In this document: in pieces, positions 17,245 through 20,914 of the stretch
Layout of the letters: every line of letters starts with the position of its first letter
How positions within the stretch are numbered: the first letter of the stretch is position 1
NCBI GenBank assembly: GCA_021777355.1
Contig: JAJYDO010000010.1
Span: 1 to 48,571 of the forward strand
Reading direction: 5' to 3'
DNA length: 48,571 bases
From: Actinomycetes bacterium
Lineage (GTDB): Bacteria; Actinomycetota; Acidimicrobiia; Acidimicrobiales; JABEUL01
Position numbers and translations under genes: made by a program
The notes under the pieces: generated by a model
What the model saw: only the letters and a program-made list of their open reading frames with translations
Databases searched by the model: none
Told to the model about the DNA's origin: nothing

Positions 17245-18128
17245 GCTCTATCTACGTGATCGAGGCTAAAACCAAGGTTTTCATATAGCTTAAGTGCCGG
17301 AGCATTGTCGGCATCTACATATAGCATGGCCGATTTAAGCCCATTGTGTTCCATCCAATCCAGACCCGCCAAAACCATTTTCTTGCCTAAACCCTGGGAT
17401 TGAATTTCCGGATCGACGGCAATAACATAAATTTCTCCGATTCTTGATTCGTAATCATCGTGGACCTTTGTCCAACATGAAGCAATTAGTCTTCCAGCTT
17501 CATTTTCAAGAAGCAAGAATCCACTCTCGTCATACCAAGCTTCACCCTGCCTGGCCTCTAAGGTCTCTATATCCCAGTTTCCTTGTTCGGGGTGGTTCTT
17601 AAAGGCCCTATTGTTTAAATCTAACCACTGAGCTTCGTCCCCTTTCCTAAAGTGCCTTACCTTGGGTCTAGGGGTATTGTCCACGATTGGAAGCGGCCGT
17701 CTCATTTGAAGGAGATCACGACCCTTTTTCAGCCCGCAGCCCTTTATCATTTCATCGACGCTTGCTTGAGGTTTTGAGACCCAAAGATGAACATGACCGC
17801 CACCCTGACTCTCTATTTCTTTCAATGCCTCTTTGATCAATGCTCTTGCAGTTGACATGTCTTGGTCTCGGTGAGAGGGGTGGACCACAAACTCAAGACC
17901 CCAACTGGTTGGACCTTTGGTGACTTGGGCATATCCAATAATGTGGCCCATGCCGCTTTTCCTTGCCACAAATCCGGCGAAACCATGCCTGCCTCCGAGT
18001 ACAAGATCAAGCCATGCATGTTCGCCAAGAGCGGGATGATTGTCAACCTTTTCTGCAGCATGGGCCAGACTGGCGACTTCTGCAATGTCGTCTTCACCCA
18101 TTCTTCGCTTAACTTCGATATCAGTCAC
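17199..18128 (-). CDS. mshD: Mycothiol synthase
   Basis: MshD acetylates Cys-GlcN-Ins to give mycothiol, the actinobacterial glutathione substitute. The 309 residues form two GNAT domains. The first (about 1-145) is degenerate with HLWVSKPQASVDEMIKGCGL. The second (about 155-300) contains the acetyl-CoA loop QSQGLGKKMVLAGLDWM and LYVDADNAPALKLYENLGF, strongly MshD-like. GTG start. Its presence is good evidence for an actinobacterial host. It diverges from nth and converges on the metal transporter, whose last codons lie on the opposite strand of its own 3' end. Confidence 0.93.
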   Translation of the reverse strand: MTDIEVKRRMGEDDIAEVASLAHAAEKVDNHPALGEHAWLDLVLGGRHGFAGFVARKSGMGHIIGYAQVTKGPTSWGLEFVVHPSHRDQDMSTARALIKEALKEIESQGGGHVHLWVSKPQASVDEMIKGCGLKKGRDLLQMRRPLPIVDNTPRPKVRHFRKGDEAQWLDLNNRAFKNHPEQGNWDIETLEARQGEAWYDESGFLLLENEAGRLIASCWTKVHDDYESRIGEIYVIAVDPEIQSQGLGKKMVLAGLDWMEHNGLKSAMLYVDADNAPALKLYENLGFSLDHVDRAYVGDVPTPTNAPTP

Positions 18129-18152
18129 TTCATAAAAGACTATCCTGCTTTT

Positions 18153-18803
18153 ATGGCAATTCCACGGAGCGGTGCGGCCCGGGCCAAGGCAATAAACGAA
18201 AGGTTAGGCAAATTATTTCCGGGAAGTGCAAAAACTCTTTGCGCACTTGAGCACAAAAATCCTTTCGAGTTAATCGCAGCGACGATCCTTTCGGCACAAT
18301 GCACCGATGAAAGAGTGAACTTAGTTACCAAAAACCTCTTCAAAAAGTATCCAACTCCACAAAAGCTCAGAAAAGCCAACTCAACAGAGGTCGAAAAAAT
18401 AATCCATTCAACCGGTTTTTTCCGAGCCAAAGCCAGGAATCTAATTTTGATGGCTGACAAAGTAGTCACAGATTTTGGAGGTGAAATACCCAGCACGATG
18501 GATGAACTCACGAAGCTTCCCGGAGTTGGTCGAAAGACTGCAAATGTAGTACTTTCAGTAGCTTTTGCCAAGCCGGGGCTTCCTGTGGATACTCATGTGC
18601 TACGGCTAAGCAAGCGGATGGGGCTTTCAACGAGCAGTGATCCCATCAAGGTCGAAGCTGATCTAAATAAAACTATTCCCCCTGATGAACGAGGAGCATT
18701 TTCAATTCGAATGATTCTTCATGGGAGAAAAACCTGCTCAAGCAGGTCGCCAAAGTGTGCTGAGTGCGATTTGTCAGATATTTGTCCCAAAATCGACCTT
18801 TAG
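18153..18803 (+). CDS. nth: Endonuclease III (DNA glycosylase/AP lyase)
   Basis: Endonuclease III removes oxidised pyrimidines and cuts abasic sites in base-excision repair. The longer open frame back to 17862 is antisense to mshD and not credible. The ATG at 18153 gives 216 residues, the normal size. The helix-hairpin-helix LTKLPGVGRKTANVVLSVAF carries the catalytic Lys, and PVDTHVLRLSKRMG the catalytic Asp. The C-terminal iron-sulphur ligands are Cys195, 202, 205 and 211 (C-x6-C-x2-C-x5-C). It diverges from mshD with only about 25 bases between starts, so their promoters must overlap the coding ends. Confidence 0.95.
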   Translation: MAIPRSGAARAKAINERLGKLFPGSAKTLCALEHKNPFELIAATILSAQCTDERVNLVTKNLFKKYPTPQKLRKANSTEVEKIIHSTGFFRAKARNLILMADKVVTDFGGEIPSTMDELTKLPGVGRKTANVVLSVAFAKPGLPVDTHVLRLSKRMGLSTSSDPIKVEADLNKTIPPDERGAFSIRMILHGRKTCSSRSPKCAECDLSDICPKIDL

Positions 18804-18811
18804 AGGGAATA

Positions 18812-18969
18812 GTTGCAAATCAAGAGGCGTTGATCAACTATGCGAGGTCGGTACCCGCCATCCGACCCGCAATTAGCCGTGGTTTACCACGTGCTTGCAG
18901 CGGCGTCCCTTCCCCCCGGGGGCGCCGTTTGCTTCGCCAGGAGCGATTCGGGTCAAAATAATTTGCAAC
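18812..18969. other. G+C-rich multi-hairpin element bounded by 9-bp inverted repeats
   Basis: GTTGCAAAT (18812-18820) and ATTTGCAAC (18961-18969) are exact inverted repeats. Inside lie the palindrome GTTGATCAAC (18829-18838), a 10-bp hairpin with one bulge (18841-18851 with 18862-18871), a CGTGG/CCACG hairpin with a TTTA loop (18878-18891), and a G+C-rich stem of about 10 pairs including two G-T (18901-18910 with 18918-18927). The block is clearly richer in G+C than the genes around it. It separates the convergent nth and the GxGYxYP gene. It could be a structured RNA, a bidirectional terminator or a MITE-like insertion. No coding frame is supported. Confidence 0.6.
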
Positions 18970-18975
18970 CAGCCA

Positions 18976-20652
18976 CTAAGGTCCTGCCAGTTGTGGTGCA
19001 GTGATCTCATTTAGAGACCGAGCGCCTAAGATCAGGCCCATAAATTTATCAGGAGCCACTACTTGGTATCCAGGTCCCAGTTGCTTTATTATTTCAGCTT
19101 CTTGGGCATAGCTGGAGTTCCATGTGTCAAGGCCGATGAATACAAACGCTGGCTTTCCACCGGCCTGTTGGGCGGTCGCTCTAATTGCATTTATGTCCTG
19201 ACCTGTCGCAATGCCGAAAACATCGTGGACTACTGGGGTTGATCCCGCAAAAGAAATTGCCGGCGGATTTGGCGTAGTGAGGTATCCGCCTGTGAAATTG
19301 TCATAGTCGGTGAATATTGCCTCCGGATTGACAATTTGTTTGTATGCGCTTATGGTCGCAGGCGATGGAGAAGACAGATAGCCGTTATCTAAAATCCAAA
19401 CCGATTTGAGTCCTGCTTGATCTAGCCTTTGCTTAGATAGAGACAAGTACTCATCAAGATTTGGCATCTGGGAGGGGTAAGCGTAACCTGCACCGCTTGG
19501 ACCACCAACAAATACGTCATTAGGCGTTGCCGTTTTCAAGTAATAGGCATACATGGTTGGCGCCAAGGAGGCCAAGTTGGCAGAAATGGAAACACCCATT
19601 GGATACTTTCCCCTGTCGGGAGACAACCACTGGTGAACGAGAAGAAAAGCTCCATCTTGGGCCAAGGAGTCGCCGTCTGTGAGCACAAAAGTCACGTAAA
19701 CAGTCGACTTATCTGGTGTTTGAGGCGAGGAGTTCCACTTCGGGGAAAAGTCAACGTTAGTTTTGAGCTGGTGAAGCAGAGATAAATTGTCAAATGTATC
19801 CGAAGGGATCAAGTAGTCACCAGCTCTTGAAATCTCGCTCACGCCAACAGATTCCAATACTGCTATACCGGTTTTGAGATATTGAGCATCTGCAAAAAAA
19901 ATGTATCCGTAAACAGGAGTATCCTTAGGGAACATCCCAAGAACCAAATTAATAACAGCTACATCGGTGGAAGGATTTGCCTCGAATGCGAAACCGTCGT
20001 TAGCCGTGATCCAGTCTCTTAGAGTTGACTGGCCTCCTTTGCCGTCGCCTGTATTGTCGCCAATCCAAACAGGAAATTTAATCTCGCTCATGAAAGGCTT
20101 CACATAGTTAGCAGCCCACGTATAAGCCTCAAGCCTCGATGTGAAGTGGTTGTTTCGAAGATCCATTAAAACTGGCAGGTTGTAAGGTGATTGCTCCAAA
20201 ACCTTGGCCATTGATGGCGAGACCGGAAGGGCACTTTTTATGCCAGATAGAGTAGTTGCAATATTTTCAGTGTCGACAATCATAGATGGATCCCAAATAA
20301 TGAGGCCTTTGATATCGGAGCGAAACTGAGAAATGAGATTTAGCGGCGCGACTCTCCTAAAGGGAAGATTGACTATATGATTGAGCCAAAATTCATCCGA
20401 TTCAGCAACCGGGGTGCCTGAATTGCTTGGAAAACCCTCTAGATAAATTTTCGTACCGCTTTTGTTCACAATACCTTCTAAGGCTGTGAAAGTAATTTGA
20501 TCATATGCTTTGTAGCCAGAAACATTGGCCACATCTAAGAGATCAGAAGAATTACTTGAAGCAGGAGAAGAACAAGCCGTAAAGAGAGAGAAAATAATAG
20601 CCACCACGATGAACGGAACGACATTTTTAATAGTTGAATACCTTTTGCTCAT
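18976..20652 (-). CDS. GxGYxYP domain lipoprotein (putative carbohydrate-active enzyme)
   Basis: The open frame extends to 20787, but the Met at 20652 gives a clean lipoprotein signal (LFTAC, lipid-modified Cys27) and is chosen, giving 558 residues. The name-giving motif GAGYAYP lies near residue 385, preceded by VGGPS, and matches the GxGYxYP C-terminal domain family, described as putative glycoside hydrolases. Other features are FVLTDGDSLAQDG and WILDNGYLS. It is probably anchored on the outer face of the membrane. The substrate is unknown. It stands alone on the minus strand, converging on nth. Enzymatic activity is inferred from family naming only. Confidence 0.8.
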   Translation of the reverse strand: MSKRYSTIKNVVPFIVVAIIFSLFTACSSPASSNSSDLLDVANVSGYKAYDQITFTALEGIVNKSGTKIYLEGFPSNSGTPVAESDEFWLNHIVNLPFRRVAPLNLISQFRSDIKGLIIWDPSMIVDTENIATTLSGIKSALPVSPSMAKVLEQSPYNLPVLMDLRNNHFTSRLEAYTWAANYVKPFMSEIKFPVWIGDNTGDGKGGQSTLRDWITANDGFAFEANPSTDVAVINLVLGMFPKDTPVYGYIFFADAQYLKTGIAVLESVGVSEISRAGDYLIPSDTFDNLSLLHQLKTNVDFSPKWNSSPQTPDKSTVYVTFVLTDGDSLAQDGAFLLVHQWLSPDRGKYPMGVSISANLASLAPTMYAYYLKTATPNDVFVGGPSGAGYAYPSQMPNLDEYLSLSKQRLDQAGLKSVWILDNGYLSSPSPATISAYKQIVNPEAIFTDYDNFTGGYLTTPNPPAISFAGSTPVVHDVFGIATGQDINAIRATAQQAGGKPAFVFIGLDTWNSSYAQEAEIIKQLGPGYQVVAPDKFMGLILGARSLNEITAPQLAGP

Positions 20653-20914
20653 AATGGCAAATTCTAATCCAAACCCAAAAAAAATGCGTTTAATATGAAA
20701 AAAGTTTGCTTGGAATGCAAATTCATATCTTGGATAAAAGTATTTCCTTATTTGTGCAGCTCTGAACAAACAAGGGATGCTGAACAAATTAGTCCAAATC
20801 TTTTTACCTGTGAAAATATGGTCACCAGATGGTACTCTCAGTTAAGTGGAAGTTAATTTACAGGAACCATATGGCTAGGTGAGGGTATTTTAATTAATTA
20901 TTAAGAGGTGAGAA

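Follow-up and report, generated by a model that had tools for sequence, protein, structure and literature searches.

Between two convergent genes in the window, as we call the whole 48,571-nucleotide stretch of DNA analysed here, lies a G+C-rich interval (18812-18969) whose hairpins raise the question of whether it encodes a structured RNA, constitutes a mobile repeat or terminates transcription. These three options stood side by side in the first-pass annotation, which had described a 158-bp multi-hairpin element with 9-bp inverted ends.

Extent of the conserved unit and its inverted ends

The interval is preceded on the plus strand by nth (endonuclease III, HhH-GPD), the upstream gene in most homologs, whose longest open reading frame spans 17862..18803 and whose true start probably lies well inside that frame. 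It is followed by the convergent gene of a GxGYxYP-family protein (18976-20787, minus strand). In windows of 150 bp its G+C fraction reaches up to 0.61 against about 0.39-0.54 in the surroundings, and both the composition and the placement between convergent genes are thus as described. The fold of 18812-18969 beats shuffled sequences with z = -4.5 on the plus and -3.4 on the minus strand. For a core of 18841-18935 alone the plus strand attains z = -5.6 with three hairpins, so that the several stable hairpins seen at first reading are real. This core is delimited by a match to the model R1 introduced below, by conservation and by this fold; 38 bp separate position 18841 from the stop of nth at 18803, on the same strand.

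The only same-genus genome available for comparison, G001, was also the only one that matched along the whole element in a DNA search of 59 relatives. Its core is 96.8% identical to that of the window, as against 85.1% in nth and 87.5% in the 3' part of the GxGYxYP gene, and the 34-bp tail at 18936-18969, which holds the right inverted arm, is 70.6% identical. The conserved unit therefore ends near 18935 and is shorter than the reported 158 bp. An exact search of public genomes for 40 bases from the 5' part of the window element returned no match.

The left arm GTTGCAAAT (18812-18820, plus strand) and the right arm ATTTGCAAC (18961-18969, no strand assigned) are exact inverted copies, as had been stated, but they do not amount to a meaningful feature. 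The window contains 18 perfect 9-bp inverted repeats with a total span of 100-180 bp, where first-order Markov simulations yield a mean of 19.5, and in G001 the right arm, which lies outside the conserved unit, is degraded to the point that pairing is left only for GTTGC/GCAAC. In view of this chance-level frequency we rejected the terminal inverted repeats as a feature, and the proposed closing helix has no support. The same data bear on whether the element is a mobile repeat, MITE-like or otherwise, bounded by terminal inverted repeats, a reading for which the exact 9-bp ends speak. A MITE is recognised by several copies with conserved terminal inverted repeats; the suggested copy count revealed a single copy in the host genome, and relatives usually hold one copy per genome, mostly syntenic. 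The single copy and the non-conserved, chance-level ends already refute this reading, and its likelihood is negligible. Note that the left arm, which is conserved in G001, contains TTGCAA (18813-18818), a possible -35 element; a consensus promoter scan listed nothing at the left arm, and no good -10 follows TTGCAA.

A family of structured RNAs in relatives

Because the window element follows nth, we inspected what comes after this gene in 40 relatives and found a similar element in 23 of them. Its first hairpin is of the type ACCAGGU-UCCCGCC-ACCUGGU, the second is closed by CGGG/CCCG around the loop AUCCGCCG, and a G+C-rich terminator follows, often with U after it. The C-rich loops are nearly invariant and form the best-conserved part; in two members (L074 and L089) both are identical, UCCCGCC. 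As individual peculiarities, L081 (G105:C34) carries a further GGGGATCCGCCGCCTGG hairpin after the terminator, which looks like a duplicate of hairpin 2, and in L077 (G065:C4) a direct repeat GAGACCACCTGTACTCAGTGCCAACACTTA occurs in at least two copies between nth and the small RNA.

Alignment A1 comprises 22 complete homologs aligned by sequence, with the window and G001 left out, and the model R1 built from it is thus likewise free of the window sequence; R2 is a larger model. In A1, two-sided changes occur in 17 of 29 pairs against a mean of 9.4 after shuffling, and none of 500 shuffles reached 17. When the partners were slid by 1-3 columns, paired cells fell from 84% to 36-52%. Among 94 distinct members two-sided changes extend to 26 of 29 pairs, in an alignment that, unlike A1, was fitted to the structure. 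The compensatory stem changes that the first-pass annotation had made the touchstone of an RNA are thus present, and its proposed covariance search from homologous intergenic regions succeeded. G-U cells outnumber A-C cells in the family pairs (115 to 30), which identifies the plus strand as the RNA strand. In 97 of 120 members, hexamers resembling a -10 box are concentrated 20-24 nt ahead of CCCGCC, which puts the predicted transcript start at the foot of hairpin 1.

Of 296 genomes sampled from the class, 52 yielded an R1 match at E<=0.01, one in each, under strict filters by which weak matches are lost, and with R2 19 of the 36 nearest genomes match at E<=0.001. The exact two-loop pattern matched at least 119 public contigs, and most of the titles listed name MAGs of Acidimicrobiia or Actinomycetes, with Ilumatobacter and Candidatus Microthrix among them. 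A phylum-wide search gave matches in the same order only, with 10 candidates scored per genome, so that absence elsewhere is unproven. Some loci depart from this general picture. G033 has two strong copies (C50:27427-27524 and C64:21961-22056), one of them just downstream of nth. At L153, nth and the small RNA point towards each other instead of in one direction, which hints at a local inversion. Two contigs titled Acidobacteria/Acidobacteriota (L188, L214) carry the small RNA; they are probably mislabelled MAGs, or else the result of transfer.

The close association with nth raises the possibility that the element is a conserved 3' UTR, or a terminator shaping the 3' end of the nth mRNA, with no independent role. 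Three observations would fit: nth is the immediate upstream neighbour, in the same orientation, at 66 of 80 listed public loci; the third hairpin resembles a terminator; and the window has no clear promoter of its own. Against this, genomes such as G020 and G002 have the small RNA elsewhere, so that it is more than a segment of the nth transcript. Likewise, the -10-like boxes keep a fixed distance from hairpin 1 in most members, and two upstream hairpins with conserved loops are needless for termination. We consider this explanation improbable. Of the bidirectional terminator suggested at first reading, a third hairpin in terminator position stands; a simple terminator is not supported, since the two hairpins before it have conserved loops and covarying stems.

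The window element as a probable divergent member

In the window, hairpin 1 (18841..18871, plus strand) has the stem and loop GGUCGG-UACCCGCCAU-CCGACC, with the loop at 18852-18861 in agreement with the near-invariant family loop (U/A)CCCGCCA. Hairpin 2 (18875..18895, plus strand) is present, but its loop is UUUA (18883-18886) in place of the AUCCGCCG or UCCCGCC of the rest of the family. The hairpin in terminator position (18897..18932, plus strand) exposes the C-rich loop UCCCCCC (18911-18917) and is followed by a weak U run. The window contains no clear -10 box 20-24 nt before CCCGCC. Its promoter appears weak by eye, and expression may possibly depend on read-through from nth.

Applied to the window, R1 returns the element as its best match with 23.4-23.5 bits (E 0.022). 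In the window's own genome it is the sole match at E<=10, with E 1.28 and at the very place predicted from nth. R2 scores it at 21.9 bits. Taken by itself this bit score is weak and does not decide the matter: the 23.5 bits of the window fall inside the range of chance and anti-sense matches in 0.7 Mb, where unrelated and anti-sense matches reach 24-28 bits. The element does share the position downstream of nth, the hairpin 1 loop (U/A)CCCGCCA and the closing terminator hairpin with the family, and a link is provided by G002, a genome of the same family as the window's. Its sole R1 match shows CCCACCA, UUUA and UUCCCCCC as successive loops, ordered as in the window, and its terminator hairpin, with the same UUCCCCCC loop, is followed by a UUUUAU tail. 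Relative to the window it shows 14 two-sided pair changes and one broken pair; as this alignment was made by hand, more weight attaches to the loops and the order in which they come than to the number of pairs. With all three loops, G002 is an intermediate that links the window variant to the family. The UUUA loop is common to G001 and G002, so this second hairpin is a lineage variant.

A search of 397 genomes of the order found GGTTTACC...TTCCCCC at equivalent sites in G000, G001 and G002 only. Twelve further matches to this pattern look like chance, and reversed-pattern controls also match. The window thus holds a variant particular to its lineage, whose hairpin 2 no longer has the CCGCC loop and whose terminator loop has turned C-rich. 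In G002 the RNA converges with a gene that has its homolog immediately after nth in G003; judging from gene order, G002 may have retained the right-hand part of one ancestral arrangement and the window its left-hand part. In G003 and G004 no such RNA was found between nth and that gene. The gene itself (L099 795-1499; L060 about 2000-2656) is conserved but unnamed and encodes a protein ending in LGWKP...VGL..P.NG.CYK.VLGLLP; it converges on the RNA in G002 but on nth in G003, and adjoins a second gene common to both loci.

We conclude that the window very likely holds a real structured RNA on the plus strand, the option among those first considered that proved right, and that this element very probably belongs, as a divergent member, to a small-RNA family of Acidimicrobiia found in none of the libraries searched.

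Known RNAs and the proposed function

At the gathering score, Rfam identified no family in the window and none in 12 homolog loci. At E<=10 there were sub-threshold matches only on the window element and one chance match on a family member (L069). The earlier statement that the element is not a tRNA, tmRNA or SRP RNA therefore holds, and no curated Rfam family matches it. Its position downstream of nth and convergent to the next gene made a riboswitch or leader an unlikely function. The family has apparently not been described before; a collection of papers searched for small RNAs in Acidimicrobiales contained none.

The closest parallel is 6C RNA (RF01066; B11 in mycobacteria), likewise an actinobacterial intergenic small RNA with C-rich hairpin loops whose last hairpin is a terminator with a C-rich loop that can serve as the seed. 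This likeness and a sub-threshold match of 19 bits could indicate a highly diverged 6C RNA. The gathering score of 6C is 47, however, and of its two hairpins with about six C in the loop the window has CCCCCC in the terminator loop only, hairpin 1 bearing CCCGCC. The family at large differs from 6C in its loops UCCCGCC and AUCCGCCG and its location at nth, the window variant also in its extra hairpin and its score far below the cut-off. Moreover, G001 has a separate RNA with two hairpins with CCCCCC loops, strong 6C matches in G059 and G032 (46.2 and 47.5 bits) lie apart from the members of the new family there, and the new family model scores 6C loci at only about 8-14 bits. Since both RNAs coexist in some genomes, an assignment to 6C is already disfavoured, and we regard it as highly improbable. 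The window's own genome (93.6% complete) yielded no ortholog of G001's 6C-like RNA. Two other families resemble the window element weakly. Cuckoo-type CcsR1 (RF02791, the CCUCCUCCC motif RNA) shares hairpins with C-rich loops and yields 18.6 bits against a cut-off of 65.3, nowhere near it, and differs in motif and hairpin arrangement. Scr3202 (RF02833, a Streptomyces RNA) yields 20.2 bits against a gathering score of 52 through its G+C-rich terminator hairpin; this part alone matches and the upstream hairpins do not.

Independently of the new family, 6C-like RNAs with two C-rich loop hairpins were observed in Acidimicrobiia at L054 (G001:C99, 680-752), L008 (G059), L009 (G032), L010, L013 and L015. 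Most are below the Rfam gathering score, and RF01066 may miss this class. A further possible case, with a strong promoter-like TTGACA stretch and a CCCCCC terminator loop, lies at about 1435-1590 of L056 (G003:C51), in a same-family genome that lacks the RNA downstream of nth.

By analogy with 6C/B11 we propose antisense pairing to ribosome-binding regions as the mode of action. Compensatory mutation in M. abscessus showed that either C-rich loop of that RNA represses eccB4 by pairing with its 5' UTR (PMC10470900); the seed in M. marinum is the loop of the terminator (PMC12395582). Correspondingly, the new RNA, presumed to be transcribed from the foot of hairpin 1 and to end at an intrinsic-terminator hairpin, would display a C-rich seed in two hairpin loops (UCCCGCC, AUCCGCCG). 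In the lineage of the window the hairpin 2 seed would have been lost and the C-rich loop UCCCCCC gained in the terminator. The exposed loops would reduce the translation of target mRNAs by pairing with their G-rich ribosome-binding regions, candidate target sites being of the GGCGGGA type across families and of the GGGGGGAA type in the window's lineage. We looked for complements of the loops upstream of start codons, where with crude start calls even GGAGG was barely enriched, which makes this test uninformative.

Alternatively, the structured RNA may work by binding a protein, as a sponge or scaffold with repeated loop motifs, rather than by antisense pairing. CsrB/C are RNAs whose repeated loop motifs bind CsrA, and the occurrence of one short motif in two hairpins of the same RNA, identical in L074 and L089 and nearly invariant throughout, is consistent with such a role. 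On the other hand, base-pairing is how the closest functional analogues with C-rich loops work, a partner protein is not known, and the lineage of the window has lost the hairpin 2 motif and shows a different C-rich loop. Protein binding thus seems rather unlikely to us. A new Acidimicrobiia small-RNA family acting in trans, its C-rich loops pairing with ribosome-binding regions, remains our main reading, with a probability of roughly 55%; taking membership of the family as given, a trans-acting antisense regulator is fairly probable.

Acidimicrobiia are widespread, mostly uncultured actinobacteria that include Ilumatobacter and Candidatus Microthrix, and to our knowledge almost nothing is known about regulatory RNA in this class. 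A usually single-copy RNA that is conserved over much of the order and retains near-invariant seed loops is likely a core regulator. More tentatively, this might be an ancient family, possibly confined to Acidimicrobiia, that forms a second global post-transcriptional regulator beside 6C and carries the same seed in two loops, with the seed moved from hairpin 2 to the terminator loop in the window's lineage and the targets shifted from GGCGG-type to GGGGGG-type sites. In mycobacteria, 6C/B11 controls growth and surface properties, and the new family would permit comparison with this system; the shift of the seed in the lineage of the window would constitute a natural experiment on how the targets of such RNAs change.
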